Of a stretch of 64,000 nucleotides of DNA, positions 41,016 to 50,842 are shown piece by piece (position 1 is the first letter of the stretch; every line of letters starts with the position of its first letter). A model generated the notes under the pieces. It had not been told where the DNA came from. It searched no databases and was given only the letters and a program-made list of their open reading frames with translations. The DNA lies in assembly GCF_009911265.1 (NCBI RefSeq), contig NZ_QXXA01000005.1:186001-250000 (forward strand). Direction: 5' to 3'. This DNA is from Senegalia massiliensis (GTDB lineage Bacteria; Bacillota; Clostridia; Tissierellales; SIT17). The position numbers and the translations under genes are program-made.

Positions 41016-41060
41016 ATAATGAGGATAACTTATTTTGCAAAATAAGTTATCCCCATTATT
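41016..41060 (-). terminator. Terminator of csoR
   Basis: ATAATGAGGATAACTTATTTT pairs with its complement across a tiny loop (one G-C mismatch), at the csoR stop. The T tract is interrupted. Confidence 0.6.
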
Positions 41061-41319
41061 TAATATATTTATCCAGAACATTAATTATTTCATCTATCTT
41101 CTCATCACCATGTCCTTCTAATATTGCTTCTTTTACACAAGATTTTATATGTGCATCTAATATATTTAAATTAGATTTTTTAAGTAAACCTTGTACTGCA
41201 AGAATTTGTTTTGATATATCTACACAATATCTATCATTTTCTAGCATTTTTATAATACCTTCTATTTGTCCTTTTGAAGTTTTTAAAAGGTTTAATGCCT
41301 TTTTTCTTTCATCTGTCAT
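41056..41319 (-). CDS. csoR: CsoR-type copper-sensing repressor
   Basis: The 87-residue all-helical repressor has the copper site C32, H57 and C61, with the exact spacing of CsoR (25 and 4 residues), and so is not the persulfide-sensing CstR type, which lacks the histidine. Apo-CsoR binds G-tract palindromes and is released by Cu(I). Candidate operators of this type occur upstream of copA, hesB-like, ccdA and the glutaredoxin gene. It lies downstream of copZ behind a hairpin. AGAGGTG precedes the ATG. Confidence 0.93.
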   Translation of the reverse strand: MTDERKKALNLLKTSKGQIEGIIKMLENDRYCVDISKQILAVQGLLKKSNLNILDAHIKSCVKEAILEGHGDEKIDEIINVLDKYIK

Positions 41320-41629: not shown

Positions 41630-44005
41630 TTATTTTACATTAAATTTTTTTAGTCTAAGTGAATTTGTGAGTACTGATACTGAACTAAATGCCATAGCTC
41701 CTCCTGCAATCATAGGATTTAATAATCCTAGTGCTGCAATTGGTATTCCAGCAGTATTATATGCAAATGCCCAGAATAAATTTTGCTTGATAGTTCTCAT
41801 AGTTTTTTTACTTAACTTTATAGCAGTAACTATTTCCATCAAGTCTCCTCTCATAAGAGTTATATCAGCTGCTTCAATAGCTACATCTGTACCAGTTCCT
41901 ATTGCAAAACCTATATCTGCTTGCGCAAGTGCTGGTGCATCATTTATTCCATCTCCTACCATTGCTACTTTTTTATTTTGAGATTGAATTTTTTCTACAT
42001 TTGCTGCTTTATCTTCAGGCAATACTTCTGCTATTACATTTTCTATACCCACTTGTTTTGCTATAGCATTTGCTGTCCTTTGATTGTCACCAGTTATCAT
42101 ATATACGTCTATATGCATATTTTTAAGTTCTTCTATAGCTCTTTTTGAACTTTCTTTTATTGTATCAGCTACTGCTATTATACCCTTTAATTCTTTATCT
42201 ATAGCTAAAATCATAGCAGTTTTTCCTTCATTTTCAAGTCTTTCTATCTCAGATGAAGCTTTAGATATATCTATATTTTCTCTATCCATAAGACGTCTAT
42301 TTCCTAAATATATCTCTTTTTTATCTAGTGTTGAATATATACCATGTCCTGGTATTGCTTCAAAATCAGATACATCACTAAGCAAAATTTCTTTAGAGTT
42401 TGCATCATTTACTATAGCTTCAGCTAAAGGATGTTCTGAAGATTTTTCTGCCGATGCTGAAATTCGAAGCACCTCTTTTTCATCTAAATCATATGTTAAT
42501 ATATCTGTAACTTCAGGTTTACCTTTAGTAATAGTTCCTGTCTTATCAAATATTATAGTATCTGTTTTTTGTGCTCTTTCTAGATGTTCTCCACCTTTTA
42601 TAAGTATTCCATTTTCTGCACCTTTACCTGTACCAACCATTATAGCTGTAGGAGTTGCAAGCCCTAATGCACAAGGACAAGCTATTACTAGAACAGATAC
42701 TGATGCTACCATTGCAGGATTAATCTCTCCACTTACTACATACCATATAATAAAGGTAAGAATAGCTATTACTACAACAATAGGAACAAATATACCAGAT
42801 ACCTTATCAGCAAGTCTTTGTACTGGTGCTTTAGATCCTTGTGCTTCTTCTACCAGCTTTATGATCTGTGATAAAGCGGTATCTTTACCAACCTTTGTAG
42901 CCTTGAATTTAAATGTACCATGTTTATTTATAGTTGAACCTATTACTTCTTCACCTATAACTTTTTCAACCGGTATTGATTCACCTGTAAGCATAGATTC
43001 ATCTACTGTAGATTTACCTTCAATGATTTCACCATCTACTGGTATTTTTTCTCCTGGTCTAACTATTATAGTTTCTCCTACTTCTACTTCTTCTACTGGT
43101 ATATCTTTTTCTTCACCGTTTCTTATTACTTTTGCAGTTTTAGCTTGAAGTCCCATAAGCTTTTTCATAGCTTCTGATGTTTTTCCTTTAGCTATGGCTT
43201 CCATTAACTTCCCTAATATTATTAAGGTAATAATAACTGCTGAAGATTCAAAGTAAAAATGGTTCATTCCTACAAGTAACATATAAATACTATAAAAATA
43301 TGCTGCTGATGTACCCATAGCTACAAGTACATCCATATTTGCTCCTCCACCTTTTAATGAATGGTAAGCACCTTTATAAAATCTCCATCCTACAATAAAT
43401 TGTACAGGTGTTGCTAAAATAAATTGAAACCATCCATTACTAAGTATAGTATCCAGTCCTGCCATATCTACAAACATAGCTGAAAGTAACGGTAAACTTA
43501 GTATTGTTGATATTATAAAAAGAGTTTTAAGATTCTTTATTTCTTTTTCTCTTGCTTCCTTTTGCTTATCAACATCTACATTTTGTTCTTTTTGTGCTTT
43601 ATATCCTGCATTTTCTACTGCTAACTGCATTTCTTTTATATTTGTCTCAGATGATAGATATTCTATAGTTGCTTTATTTGTAGCTATATTTACGTTTACT
43701 TCTCCTATACCTTCAACTTTTTTTAACGCTTTTTCCACTCTTGCAGCACAAGCTGAACAAGTCATACCTTCAATATCTAACCTTACTCTATCCATTGAAG
43801 CTGTGTATCCTGTGTTTGTTACTGTATCCATTAATTTTTTAACACTAACTTTTTCAGGATCATATTCAACTGTAGCTTTTTCAGCAATTAGGTTTACTAC
43901 TGCACTTTTTACACCATCTATCTTTGATAGAGAACCCTCTACCCTATTTGAACAGGATGCTCAAGTCATACCTGTAACTTTAAAACTTACTTTTTCTACA
44001 CTCAT
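41630..44005 (-). CDS. copA: Copper-exporting P1B ATPase with a selenocysteine in its first metal-binding domain
   Basis: Read from the ATG at 44005 the protein is 791 residues with one in-frame TGA at codon 15 (43961-43963). The first HMA domain then reads GMTUASC, with U in place of the first cysteine of the CxxC motif; the second HMA domain has normal GMTCSAC with C83 and C86. The ATPase core is complete: CPC in [29 protein letters not shown] and [11 protein letters not shown]. Homology continues on both sides of the TGA in the same frame, with GGGAG before the ATG, so this is not a frameshift. A Sec-less start at 43831 would drop the first domain. A CsoR operator lies upstream. Confidence 0.9.
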
Positions 44006-44025
44006 TGTTACAACTCCCTTCTTAT

Positions 44026-44046
44026 ACCCCACCCTATGTGGGGTGT
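44026..44046. promoter_or_regulatory. CsoR-type operator of copA-copZ
   Basis: ACCCCACCCTATGTGGGGT contains the CCCCAC/GTGGGG inverted repeat between the promoter and the copA start, as expected for a CsoR site. Confidence 0.75.
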
Positions 44047-45966: not shown

Positions 45967-46266
45967 TTAACAAGATGATGCACCATTTCCTGTTGTTACT
46001 CTAAACCCTTTACCGGTCCAATTTTTAGTATAGTCTACATTGAATGCGCCTACTTGATCAGATAAATTCTTATCTACCAAGAAAGTTATTCCATCTATAT
46101 CTTCAGTTATATCTTCTTTGTTTTGCTCATCCAGAGCAATACCATAAGATGGACCACCTCAACCAAAGCCTGCTACATATACTCTTATTTTCTTGTCTAG
46201 TGCATCTTTTTTTTCCATAATTTTTTTAATTTCATTAATTGCTGTTGTTGTTACATTTAATTTCAC
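45967..46266 (-). CDS. HesB-like selenoprotein
   Basis: Read from the GTG at 46266 (AGAGGAGAG before it) the gene encodes 99 residues with one in-frame TGA at codon 36 (46159-46161). The context is VYVAGFGUGGPSYGIALDE, the signature of the known HesB-like selenoprotein family, in which other members carry Cys at this place. The protein ends NGASSC. The fold is that of IscA/HesB iron-sulfur carriers. Its upstream region carries a G-tract palindrome and a second 26-bp palindrome over the promoter. Without Sec insertion only a 35-residue fragment would be made. Confidence 0.92.
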
Positions 46267-46283: not shown

Positions 46284-46300
46284 ATACCCTATCAGGGTAT
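46284..46300. promoter_or_regulatory. G-tract operator upstream of the HesB-like gene
   Basis: ATACCCTATCAGGGTAT is a perfect inverted repeat with seven-base arms between promoter and start, similar to CsoR-family sites. Confidence 0.6.
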
Positions 46301-47618: not shown

Positions 47619-48314
47619 CTATTGATTTAGCCAATTTCCAATTATAATCATTTTGTCAAAAAATACTAACAATCCAAATATAACCATTATAATTCCTGCT
47701 ATTTTATATATATATCCAGACCACTTTTGTATTTTATTTAAAAATCTAGTAGAATAGTTTATAAACAATGCTGTTAATATAAATGGTACAGCCATTCCAA
47801 TAGAATAAACTAATAGTAGATATACAGAACTTGATACATCATTAGATAGTCCTGCTTTTACCAAAATTGATGCAAGTATAGGTCCATAACAAGGAGTCCA
47901 TCCTGCAGCAAATGCCATACCCATTACTGTAGATCCTAAAAAAGTAGTTACTTTCTTTGGACTTTTTGCTTTTCTTTGAGTATTCATAAACTTCAAGTCA
48001 ATTATACCCATTAAATTAAGTCCAAAAAACATTATTAAAACTCCACTTATCTTTGTAAATATAGCTTTATTTTCTATAAATAATCTTCCTATATAACTTG
48101 CTGAAACTCCCATTATCATAAATATTATAGTAAATCCTAATACGAAACCTAATGTGCGTGATAATGCTAGCCATTTTTTTCTAGATAATTCTTCCTCTAT
48201 ACTAGTTCCTGTCATATACATTATATATGCAGGTATAAGAGGTAAAATACATGGAGAAAAAAATGAAAGTACTCCAGCGATAAAAGCTACAGAGAATGTA
48301 ACATCTTCAAACAT
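47619..48314 (-). CDS. ccdA: CcdA-type transmembrane electron transporter
   Basis: The 231-residue protein has six transmembrane helices and the two redox cysteines in FFSPCILPLIPAYIM and GWTPCYGPILASI. It carries reducing power from cytoplasmic thioredoxin-like proteins to outside partners such as the TlpA protein of the same operon. AAGGAAGG precedes the ATG. A CsoR-like palindrome lies in its promoter. Confidence 0.93.
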   Translation of the reverse strand: MFEDVTFSVAFIAGVLSFFSPCILPLIPAYIMYMTGTSIEEELSRKKWLALSRTLGFVLGFTIIFMIMGVSASYIGRLFIENKAIFTKISGVLIMFFGLNLMGIIDLKFMNTQRKAKSPKKVTTFLGSTVMGMAFAAGWTPCYGPILASILVKAGLSNDVSSSVYLLLVYSIGMAVPFILTALFINYSTRFLNKIQKWSGYIYKIAGIIMVIFGLLVFFDKMIIIGNWLNQ

Positions 48315-48342: not shown

Positions 48343-48374
48343 ATACCATATAGGGGTATTTCAAATCAAGATAA
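48343..48374 (-). promoter_or_regulatory. ccdA promoter with CsoR-like palindrome
   Basis: ATACCCCTATATGGTAT (48343-48359, minus strand) is an imperfect ATACC/GGTAT inverted repeat. It lies between a TTGATT -35 and a TATAGT -10 on the minus strand. Confidence 0.5.
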
Positions 48375-48477: not shown

Positions 48478-48663
48478 ATGGCTATTACTAAGGATATGCT
48501 TATAGGTGAAATATTAAGAGAGAGACCAGATGCTCCAGAAATACTAATGCGCTTTGGTATGGGATGTGTAGGTTGCCCTGCTTCTCAAATGGAATCATTA
48601 GAACAAGCTGCAATGGTACATGGACTTGATTTAACTGAATTATTAGAAGCATTAAATGAGTAA
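48478..48663 (+). CDS. DUF1858 domain protein
   Basis: The 61-residue protein has the DUF1858 core [33 protein letters not shown] with the CVGC pair; the family is linked to hybrid-cluster proteins and redox or scaffold functions. It is divergent from the ccdA operon and convergent with the glutaredoxin genes. AAGGAGGA precedes the ATG. Confidence 0.85.
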
Positions 48664-48714: not shown

Positions 48715-48939
48715 TTACAGTAATTCTTCTAGTCTATTTTTATCGAAGCCTACCATTTCTTCTCCATCTACTATTATTACTGGAACTCCCATATATCCTT
48801 TTTGGATTAGTTCCTTTCTTGCTGTAGAATCAGTAGTTACATTTTTTTCTGTAAAGTCTACACCTTTTTCATTTAAATATTCTTTAGCAGAAGTACAATG
48901 TGGACAAGTGCTACTTGTATATACTGTTACATTTTTCAT
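48715..48939 (-). CDS. Glutaredoxin-like protein, cysteine form
   Basis: The 74-residue protein has the thioredoxin fold of NrdH/Grx type: [21 protein letters not shown] with the CPHC active site at residues 11-14, then [18 protein letters not shown]. It is nearly identical over its C-terminal half to the Sec-containing copy upstream (49091-49315). AAGGAGG stands before the ATG at 48939; an in-frame start 20 codons earlier lies inside the promoter and is rejected. It has its own promoter with a perfect CsoR-type operator. Confidence 0.92.
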
Positions 48940-48970
48940 ATAAATTACCTCCTTGAATTTCATTAATAAT

Positions 48971-48998
48971 ATTATACCCCATAGGGGTATAATTGTCA
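48971..48998 (-). promoter_or_regulatory. Promoter and CsoR-type operator of the Cys glutaredoxin gene
   Basis: TTGACA and TATAAT on the minus strand are separated by 17 bases, and perfect ten-base arms ATTATACCCC and GGGGTATAAT (48971-48993, three-base centre) fill the spacer and -10. This is the strongest operator of the set. Confidence 0.85.
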
Positions 48999-49042
48999 AA
49001 CCCTATATTTATTATGATACCACATAAAATTATTTTAAATAT

Positions 49043-49082
49043 TAAAAAAACCTATAGGAATATCATTACCTATAGGTTTTAT
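49043..49082 (-). terminator. Terminator of the Sec glutaredoxin gene
   Basis: AAAACCTATAGG and CCTATAGGTTTTTTT form a strong hairpin on the minus strand. Confidence 0.88.
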
Positions 49083-49090
49083 CTATGTTC

Positions 49091-49315
49091 TTATAGTAAT
49101 TCTTCTAATCTATTCTTATCGAAGCCTACCATTTCTTCTCCATCTACTATTATTACTGGAACTCCCATATATCCTTTTTGAATTAGTTCCTTTCTTGCTG
49201 ATGGATCAGTTTGTACGTTTTTTTCCTCATATTCTACACCTTTCTCCGAAAGGTATTGCTTGGCAGTAGCACAATGAGGTCAAGTATTACTTGTGTAAAT
49301 TGTTACATTTGCCAT
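49091..49315 (-). CDS. Glutaredoxin-like selenoprotein (UxxC)
   Basis: From the ATG at 49315 (AAGGAGG in front) the gene encodes 74 residues with one in-frame TGA at codon 12 (49280-49282). The active site therefore reads TUPHC where the paralogue at 48715-48939 reads TCPHC. The rest is colinear, and from [13 protein letters not shown] to the stop it is the same protein. TTG-T-GC and GC-CAA after the TGA can form a short stem with a bulged T, compatible with a bacterial SECIS. Such Sec forms normally have much faster thiol chemistry than Cys forms. Confidence 0.93.
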
Positions 49316-49420
49316 TTAAATTCCTCCTTATAGAAATATTCTATAGTTTTTTTAAAACTATTGACTATTTCTATAATACCCTATATTCACTCCTAATAAT
49401 CATTATTTATTCTTAATATT

Positions 49421-50842
49421 TTAAGATAGAGGACTTGTTGGTCTAAGAGGCGTTATTATTCTTCCAGTTTTTGCATCAATATGAATTAGCCAATAGCCTA
49501 ACCTTTCATCTCCTGAATCTTTAGACTCAAGCCATGTAGTAAAACCAGACATACCTCTAAAGGGTTGCTCTTTTCTTGTAAATAATCCTGGTATACCATA
49601 TACAAAGTGCTTAACTGTACTTTCACCATAAGAAACTATTCCAAATAAATAATGTTTATATTTTCTAATTTGCTTTGATGGACTATTCATTTTATTCATT
49701 AAGGTATAAGGATATTGCATATTTACAACGTAATTATAATATGGTAAAAACCCTCTTCTTATATTTACACTATCTTCAGTAATTTCCCAGAAGTTATATT
49801 CTTCTAAATTAATTTTAAAAGGTTCTACTTGATTAAAGTAGTTTAATATATTTAGCGAATAAGCTTGATATTTATTTTTATTTCTATTATTAGTAGTTTT
49901 ATTATTATATTTCTTTTGATTGTTTACTTCTTTTGATTTATATTCCTTATATCTATAATATTCTTCTAAATCTCTCTCTGATTTATTTAGTATATATTCT
50001 TCTAAATTTGAATCTGCATTCGGATAATCTTCATCGTGAATATCATCATCATCATAATTCAATTCTATACCTTGTGTTTCTTGTTCTCTTTCTATCTCTT
50101 TAACTTCTATTTCTTTTTCTTGTCCTTCTTCTACCTCTTCAAATTCTATTTCTTCTTTTGGCTCTTCTTCTACTTCTTTTATCTCTATTTCTTCTTTCGG
50201 CTCTTCTTCTACTTCTTCTATCTCTATTTCTTCTTTTGGCTCTTCTTCTACTTCTTCTATCTCTATTTCTTCTTTTGGCTCTTCTTCTACTTCTTCTATC
50301 TCTATTTCTTCTTTTGGCTCTTCTTCTACTTCTTCTATCTCTATTTCTTCTTTTGGCTCTTCTTCTACTTCTTCTATCTCTATTTCTTCTTTTGGCTCTT
50401 CTTTTACTTCTTCTATCTCTATTTCTTCTTTTGGCTCTTCGTACTTTCTAGATACTATAGAAAGTATATCTTTTTCCTTCTCTTTTCTATGTATATATCC
50501 GTATAATACTTCTGAATCAGAGCTTTTTATTACTATAATATTATAGTCATCTATTGCTCTATCTGAATGTAATACGTTTTTAGGATTAAAATCATTTTTA
50601 TAGAATGATTTGCCTCCTCCTACATCAGACATAGTTCCAAAATATAAAAATTCTTTTTTTGAACTATTATCATCAATGAGAATTATGTCATATACGTTAT
50701 TTACATCTGCTATTCCACTGATATTTACTTCTAATTTCCCTCTTCCATCTCTGACTTCAATTTTGGAATGTCCTTTTATATGGGTATTAGAAGTCGCACT
50801 TTCTAACATAATAAATTTTCTTAAATATTTAATATTACTCAC
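49421..50842 (-). CDS. Acidic repeat protein, unknown
   Basis: The 473-residue protein has an N-terminal beta-rich domain (about 1-125; GKLEVNISGIADVNNVYDIIL), a central array of 13-residue repeats of type EEPKEEIEIEEVE (about 133-250), a lysine/asparagine-rich linker and a conserved-looking C-terminal domain (about 340-473; EEYNFWEITEDSVNIRRGFLPYYNYV, FGIVSYGESTVKHFVYGIPG). No signal peptide or membrane segment. The ends resemble clostridial proteins of unknown, possibly spore-related, role, but I cannot name a family. The GTG start follows AAAGGGGGG. Confidence 0.7.
   Translation of the reverse strand: MSNIKYLRKFIMLESATSNTHIKGHSKIEVRDGRGKLEVNISGIADVNNVYDIILIDDNSSKKEFLYFGTMSDVGGGKSFYKNDFNPKNVLHSDRAIDDYNIIVIKSSDSEVLYGYIHRKEKEKDILSIVSRKYEEPKEEIEIEEVKEEPKEEIEIEEVEEEPKEEIEIEEVEEEPKEEIEIEEVEEEPKEEIEIEEVEEEPKEEIEIEEVEEEPKEEIEIKEVEEEPKEEIEFEEVEEGQEKEIEVKEIEREQETQGIELNYDDDDIHDEDYPNADSNLEEYILNKSERDLEEYYRYKEYKSKEVNNQKKYNNKTTNNRNKNKYQAYSLNILNYFNQVEPFKINLEEYNFWEITEDSVNIRRGFLPYYNYVVNMQYPYTLMNKMNSPSKQIRKYKHYLFGIVSYGESTVKHFVYGIPGLFTRKEQPFRGMSGFTTWLESKDSGDERLGYWLIHIDAKTGRIITPLRPTSPLS
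50108..50445 (-). repeat. 39-bp coding tandem repeat
   Basis: Eight near-identical 39-base units (GGCTCTTCTTCTACTTCTTC on the plus strand begins most units) plus one degenerate unit encode EEPKEEIEIEEVE. The inner five units translate identically, so the array probably expands and contracts. Confidence 0.9.

Follow-up and report, generated by a model that had tools for sequence, protein, structure and literature searches.

An open question is why cells bear the cost of selenocysteine (Sec) when homologs with Cys are available. A few described systems come close to the one considered here. The best solved relative of the selenoprotein considered here (E 8e-28) is Grx1 of Clostridium (Alkaliphilus) oremlandii (PDB 7c10, 7c12), a native selenoprotein glutaredoxin (PMC7642778; Kim et al. 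2011, cited in PMC13188914) with a selenoprotein MsrA as its proposed partner. Sec and Cys isoforms coexist in one organism, under different transcriptional control, in Methanococcus maripaludis (PMC11097638). A mark of bacterial selenoprotein genes is a hairpin shortly downstream of the UGA whose small apical loop includes a G (PMC1088965). Few Sec-to-Cys changes are said to have been documented in bacteria (PMC13188914).

The window analyzed here is a 64,000-nucleotide stretch of a 3.1 Mb genome (G000) that belongs to the same genus as two deposited Anaeromonas genomes. The pair of 74-codon Sec and Cys genes pointed out in an initial annotation of this DNA is real, the two copies being separated by 151 bp:

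49091-49315, minus strand: Sec glutaredoxin-like gene, 74 codons, TUPHC active site (PF00462, 71.7 bits; cut-off 22.9)
49280-49282, minus strand: in-frame UGA at codon 12 of the Sec copy, predicted to encode Sec; shared at this position by 18 copies of the order
48715-48939, minus strand: Cys glutaredoxin-like gene, 74 codons, TCPHC (PF00462, 68.7 bits; cut-off 22.9)
48478-48663, plus strand: DUF1858/TIGR03980 redox-disulfide protein, a conserved neighbor

Both proteins have the glutaredoxin fold (PF00462) and lie nearest to the YruB and NrdH-like groups. Their best NCBIfam match is TIGR02196 (YruB-type glutaredoxin), yet at 86.8 and 86.7 bits they fall just below its cut-off of 88.55; for NF041212 (UXX-star seleno-glutaredoxins, cut-off 66) the Sec copy reaches 63.8 bits and the Cys copy 58.2. 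The Sec protein begins MANVTIYTSNTUPHCATAKQYLSEKG. Compared codon by codon, the copies show a two-phase identity, in which codons 1-39 hold most of the changed codons and codons 40-75 hold four, all synonymous, with a run of 21 identical codons at 46-66. The near identity originally described for the last two thirds of the genes is thus present at their 3' end, and is closer to the last half in extent. Upstream of the Sec gene, a 473-aa protein contains a repeated acidic peptide (EEPKEEIEIEEVE; window 50140-50440, minus strand).

The genome encodes the full machinery for Sec: a tRNA-Sec at 69.9 bits over cut-off, SelB (profile score 373), SelA (640) and SelD (387), all clustered on one contig within 8 kb, the SelD gene carrying an in-frame UGA of its own. 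The UGA of the glutaredoxin gene aligns with the catalytic Cys of homologs, and all Sec copies, from several families of the order, have it as their twelfth codon. Downstream of it, G000 and Anaeromonas gelatinilytica (G002) differ in their Sec genes with a dS of 0.86 and a dN of 0.028 (dN/dS ~0.03); codons 13-36, which make up the unconverted 5' half discussed below, give a dN of 0.054 and a dS of 0.76. The two observations that the initial annotation had set down as able to overturn its selenium-dependent isoform, a lack of Sec machinery or relaxed selection past codon 12, are therefore both contradicted. Judged by its sequence, the UGA copy functions as a selenoprotein gene, at whose codon 12 Sec would be inserted, and not a pseudogene.

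A candidate recoding signal follows the UGA:

49236-49256, minus strand: predicted SECIS hairpin (AUACCUUU - CGGAG - AAAGGUGU), apical loop ~32 nt past the UGA

As RNA the element reads ACCUUU-CGGAG-AAAGGU, a hairpin just after the UGA whose small apical loop holds a G. Its core, CUUUCGG...AAAGG, is invariant at synonymous sites in 13 distinct class-I Sec copies from five families, and imposes codons that the genome otherwise avoids (TCG, 1.6% of Ser codons; TAC, 8% of synonyms). When each gene was set against 500 synonymous recodings, the fold of the G000 Sec copy had a z of -4.1, and at most 2.4% of recodings were as stable in 11 of the 13 class-I Sec copies and in none of the Cys copies. 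A search for covariation in the SECIS found one-sided changes only and no compensatory double changes, so its support is taken from synonymous-site invariance and the recoding controls, which together indicate maintenance by purifying selection. An Rfam search of the gene-pair region returned nothing above chance.

Side-by-side pairs were found in three genomes of the genus (G000, G002 and G003) and, outside it, in Caloranaerobacter azorensis (L025, the same locus as G214), its relatives G215 and G216, and G248; the MES13 MAG has two loci, each with one Sec and two Cys genes. The assembly of A. frigoriresistens (G001) is interrupted within the 3' half that the copies share, where a near-exact repeat would be expected to break it. 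The segments in question are:

49091-49211, minus strand: 3' half of the Sec copy, homogenized with the Cys copy (tract at about codons 36-75)
48715-48835, minus strand: 3' half of the Cys copy, homogenized with the Sec copy

In the comparison of G000 with G002, 15 sites pair the copies by residue type (the two Sec genes together, the two Cys genes together), none of them after nt 104, and nine pair them by species, eight of these from nt 111 on; sites of the third pattern do not occur. A single breakpoint fits 23 of the 24 sites (permutation p ~1e-4). Synonymous divergence along the two genes, the check that had been proposed for this pair, changes in the same way: paralog dS is 1.34, 2.0 and 1.34 (G000, G002 and G003, respectively) in codons 13-36 and 0.24, 0.30 and 0.13 in codons 37-74, against Sec ortholog values between G000 and G002 of 0.76 and 0.93 for the same two segments. 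The replacement K67R is present in both G002 copies. Since paralog dS is above that of the species split in the 5' part and below it in the 3' part, the duplication is older than the species, and homogenization of the back halves came after the split. The initial annotation had offered recent duplication or gene conversion; the breakpoint and the dS of codons 13-36 reject the former and bear out the latter. From these alignments, homogenization by conversion took place after speciation in at least two lineages of Anaeromonas, and the half that carries the promoter, UGA and SECIS stays distinct, the conversion boundary falling just downstream of UGA and SECIS. It may be that selection against loss of the UGA or SECIS sets this boundary. 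A tree of the 5' half is poorly resolved, the sequence being too short, and a brief literature search found no paper on conversion between Sec and Cys paralogs in bacteria.

The two copies also have different upstream regions. That of the Sec copy contains:

49366-49402, minus strand: conserved upstream element, TGATT-N16-GGGTATTATAGAAATA, sigma-B-like

The TGATT-GGGTA element is present in 10 of 18 Sec upstream regions (expected 0.23). At the Sec gene of the window it reads TGATT-N16-GGGTAT, in agreement with WGWTT-N13-17-GGGTA, the consensus reported for sigma-B promoters in Clostridioides difficile (PMC7494833, PMC7482061), and G000 encodes rsbV-rsbW-sigB, in addition to sigF and sigG. A genus-wide search for GWTTAA-N13/15-GGGTAT gave 13 sites against 37 in the reversed control, so there is no large regulon of this spelling; most of its intergenic matches directly precede redox genes (the Sec glutaredoxin, a WrbA-like flavoprotein and nitroreductases). 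A relaxed sigma-B-like pattern also finds matches upstream of 15 of 34 Cys genes, in most cases through a -35 box that reads TTGATT. Given promoter resemblance of this kind, a sigma-B assignment of the Sec-copy element is plausible. The same region had been read as half of the Cys-copy operator, on account of TAGGGTAT at 49376-49383. This 8-mer is found six times in the window where 2.8 are expected and so is by itself no evidence of a half operator; we discard that reading in favor of the separate conserved element. The Sec gene leader (window 49330-49382, minus strand) includes a long inverted repeat (TATAGAAATA ... TATTTCTATA) that ends at the ribosome-binding site and is also seen in Anaeromonas and some relatives.

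Upstream of the Cys copy lie a promoter and an operator of the CsoR/CstR family, here called class B, which recurs elsewhere in the window together with a second class at the copper genes:

48971-48999, minus strand: promoter of the Cys copy, TTGACA-N17-TATAAT (12/12)
48974-48990, unstranded: class-B operator ATACCC-N5-GGGTAT in the promoter spacer, CsoR/CstR family
48343-48359, unstranded: class-B operator variant before ccdA (ATACCATATAGGGGTAT)
47619-48314, minus strand: ccdA (PF02683), then a tlpA/resA-like gene and an lgt-like gene
46284-46300, unstranded: class-B operator before the HesB-like gene
45967-46266, minus strand: HesB-like selenoprotein gene (GFGUGGP), class-B regulon
44024-44046, unstranded: copA operator, different and longer, class A, CsoR-like
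41056-41319, minus strand: csoR (Cys-His-Cys ligand set), with copZ and copA

The operator of the Cys copy is as perfect as first described, ATACCCC-ATA-GGGGTAT (ATACCCC-TAT-GGGGTAT on the other strand) inside the 17-nt spacer, with 0 expected by chance, and class-B operators stand upstream of 19 of 34 Cys genes (expected 0.07). With one weaker half allowed, class-B sites precede the Cys glutaredoxin, ccdA and HesB-like selenoprotein genes in congeners and in other families. The UGA of the HesB-like gene is itself kept across the genus and order. In G003, ATACCCCCTAGGGGTAT stands before a TusA-rhodanese/DsrE/rhodanese-MBL/TusA operon, so that the operator is shared with cst-type genes, and the gene content is that of CstR regulons (PMC5480029, PMC9405070). 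This cst-like operon (L169, 6263-11102) continues with a SulP-type transporter and a carbonic anhydrase. Because the class-B regulon has the gene content of a CstR regulon, we somewhat favor a Cys copy that answers per- or polysulfide over one that answers copper.

The initial annotation had considered the Cys form metal-inducible. The copA operator, however, belongs to another class (ACCCCAC...GTGGGGT), both in the window and in its congeners, four genomes in all, and is close to the CsoR site of M. tuberculosis (PMC10318464); the Cys copy shares its operator not with copA and csoR but with the sulfurtransferase operon, ccdA and the HesB-like gene, and copper control is accordingly disfavored. 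Two CsoR-family proteins are encoded in the genome: the window encodes one with the Cys-His-Cys copper-sensor set, and the second (L145; G000:C9:89427-89663) retains both Cys residues with a Tyr where CsoR has its metal-ligand His, resembling the CstR dithiol sensors, which are likewise without the His. No class-B site was found beside this second gene, and its link to the class-B operator is indirect. No selenium-linked regulator was seen, and the operator class argues against induction of the Cys copy by selenium shortage. Within the copper genes, an N-terminal extension of CopA (window 43830-44005, minus strand) has a UGA in its first heavy-metal motif (GMTUASC), kept in four congeners; CopA with this motif would be a selenoprotein copper ATPase, and the open reading frame listing begins copA too late.

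We consider it probable that an old duplication, common to several families of the order, gave rise to two glutaredoxin/NrdH-like reductases whose back halves are converted and whose front halves are selected apart. In one copy, the UGA and a SECIS hairpin within codons 20-28 would place Sec at the nucleophile, and a conserved promoter that belongs to this copy, probably sigma-B (general stress) in type, would drive transcription. The other, which keeps Cys, would be expressed from a sigma-A promoter under repression by a CsoR-family protein, for which a CstR-type persulfide sensor is the likeliest candidate. Conversion would repeatedly rewrite the back half that the copies have in common (codons ~36-75, including the segments GVPVI and GFD), giving both proteins one body, and selection would remove tracts that erase the UGA, the SECIS or the promoters, leaving the front halves distinct.

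Relatives are informative as to the alternatives. Most genomes with a pair have Sec under the sigma-B-type element and Cys under the operator, but the pair in G193 (L137, 1067-1583) is swapped, with Cys under the sigma-B-type element and Sec under the operator, and in G204 and G207 (L138, L139) Sec is likewise in the operator-driven copy. The latter two have a second SECIS position, a hairpin CUGCAAA-GGAUUA-UUUGCAG ~20 nt past the UGA, which suggests an independent gain of Sec; no excess of RNA structure over synonymous recodings was found in G193 and G197. In G160 (L129, 3005-3226) a Cys glutaredoxin has a Sec-type promoter and a SECIS remnant, CUUUCAGAGAAAG, with one loop base altered, likely a recent Sec-to-Cys reversion by these features, and G005 and G023 have Cys/Cys tandems. 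The swapped and operator-driven Sec copies, together with a HesB selenoprotein in the operator regulon, argue against the simple selenium-free backup that the Cys form was at first taken for; they favor one type of enzyme that receives two stress inputs and tends to carry Sec in the general-stress branch. A main Sec enzyme with a copper-inducible, selenium-independent Cys backup, arising from a recent duplication, would fit the CsoR-family operator of the Cys copy, csoR-copZ-copA only 5-8 kb away and the selenium-controlled Sec/Cys isoforms known elsewhere (PMC11097638). It is nonetheless improbable in view of the different operator class of copA, the company the Cys-copy operator keeps (sulfurtransferase, ccdA and HesB-selenoprotein genes), the paralog dS of 1.3-2.0 in codons 13-36, and Sec in the operator-driven copies of G193, G204 and G207.

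The swapped residues of G193, the Cys in the sigma-B-type copy of G160 with its SECIS-like remnant and the Cys/Cys tandems also lend themselves to another account, in which the two promoters do represent different stress inputs while Sec and Cys are secondary and interchangeable, drifting between the copies with little functional effect. Against this stand the prevailing association of Sec with the sigma-B-type element and of Cys with the operator, and a SECIS maintained by purifying selection; we regard such drift as rather unlikely, though much less so than the copper backup. That the UGA copy is a decaying pseudogene, sustained by conversion from its neighbor, would account for a 3' half repeatedly homogenized with an intact copy, and is extremely improbable: the unconverted 5' half is conserved between species, the position of the UGA (codon 12) is the same in all Sec copies of the different families, the SECIS is likewise conserved, and the dN/dS of ~0.03 after the UGA rejects it. 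Under differential stress control with converted back halves, it is nearly as likely as not that the recoding signal is a barrier to conversion. A tandem Sec/Cys pair would then evolve in concert up to a fixed boundary at the UGA-SECIS block, with conversion homogenizing all that Sec insertion can do without, while across the order Sec moves between stress-promoter and persulfide-operator copies, with two SECIS positions and a Sec-to-Cys reversion that leaves a SECIS remnant.

Sec/Cys isoforms as such are already known; what makes the function of Sec testable here is the recurrence of the pairs, together with a boundary to conversion and with reversions. One 74-residue protein exists in Sec and Cys forms in the same cell, with near-identical back halves and different switches, a natural test of the role of selenium. 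With the pair replicated in several species, and swapped and reverted cases at hand, kinetics, oxidation resistance and fitness can be compared, as can the ways in which SECIS constraints shape gene conversion. C. oremlandii Grx1, which has native Sec, shares the U(C)PxC active site with the Sec copy. In M. maripaludis the switch is selenium status acting through HrsM, whereas the elements in Anaeromonas point to stress and persulfide signals, and the Anaeromonas pair differs from the M. maripaludis sets in consisting of small thiol reductases that undergo conversion. The C. difficile sigma-B regulon has the same promoter type (WGWTT-N13-17-GGGTA; PMC7494833, PMC7482061), and rsbV-rsbW-sigB is present here; the main text of those papers names no glutaredoxin. 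Sigma-B-like matches here also precede nitroreductase and WrbA-like genes, with no genome-wide enrichment in number. With the CstR regulons of S. aureus and E. faecalis (PMC5480029, PMC9405070) the class-B regulon has in common an operator before a TusA-rhodanese/rhodanese-MBL operon, in G003, and a second regulator without the copper-binding His; it differs from them in additionally including a glutaredoxin, CcdA and a HesB-like selenoprotein.
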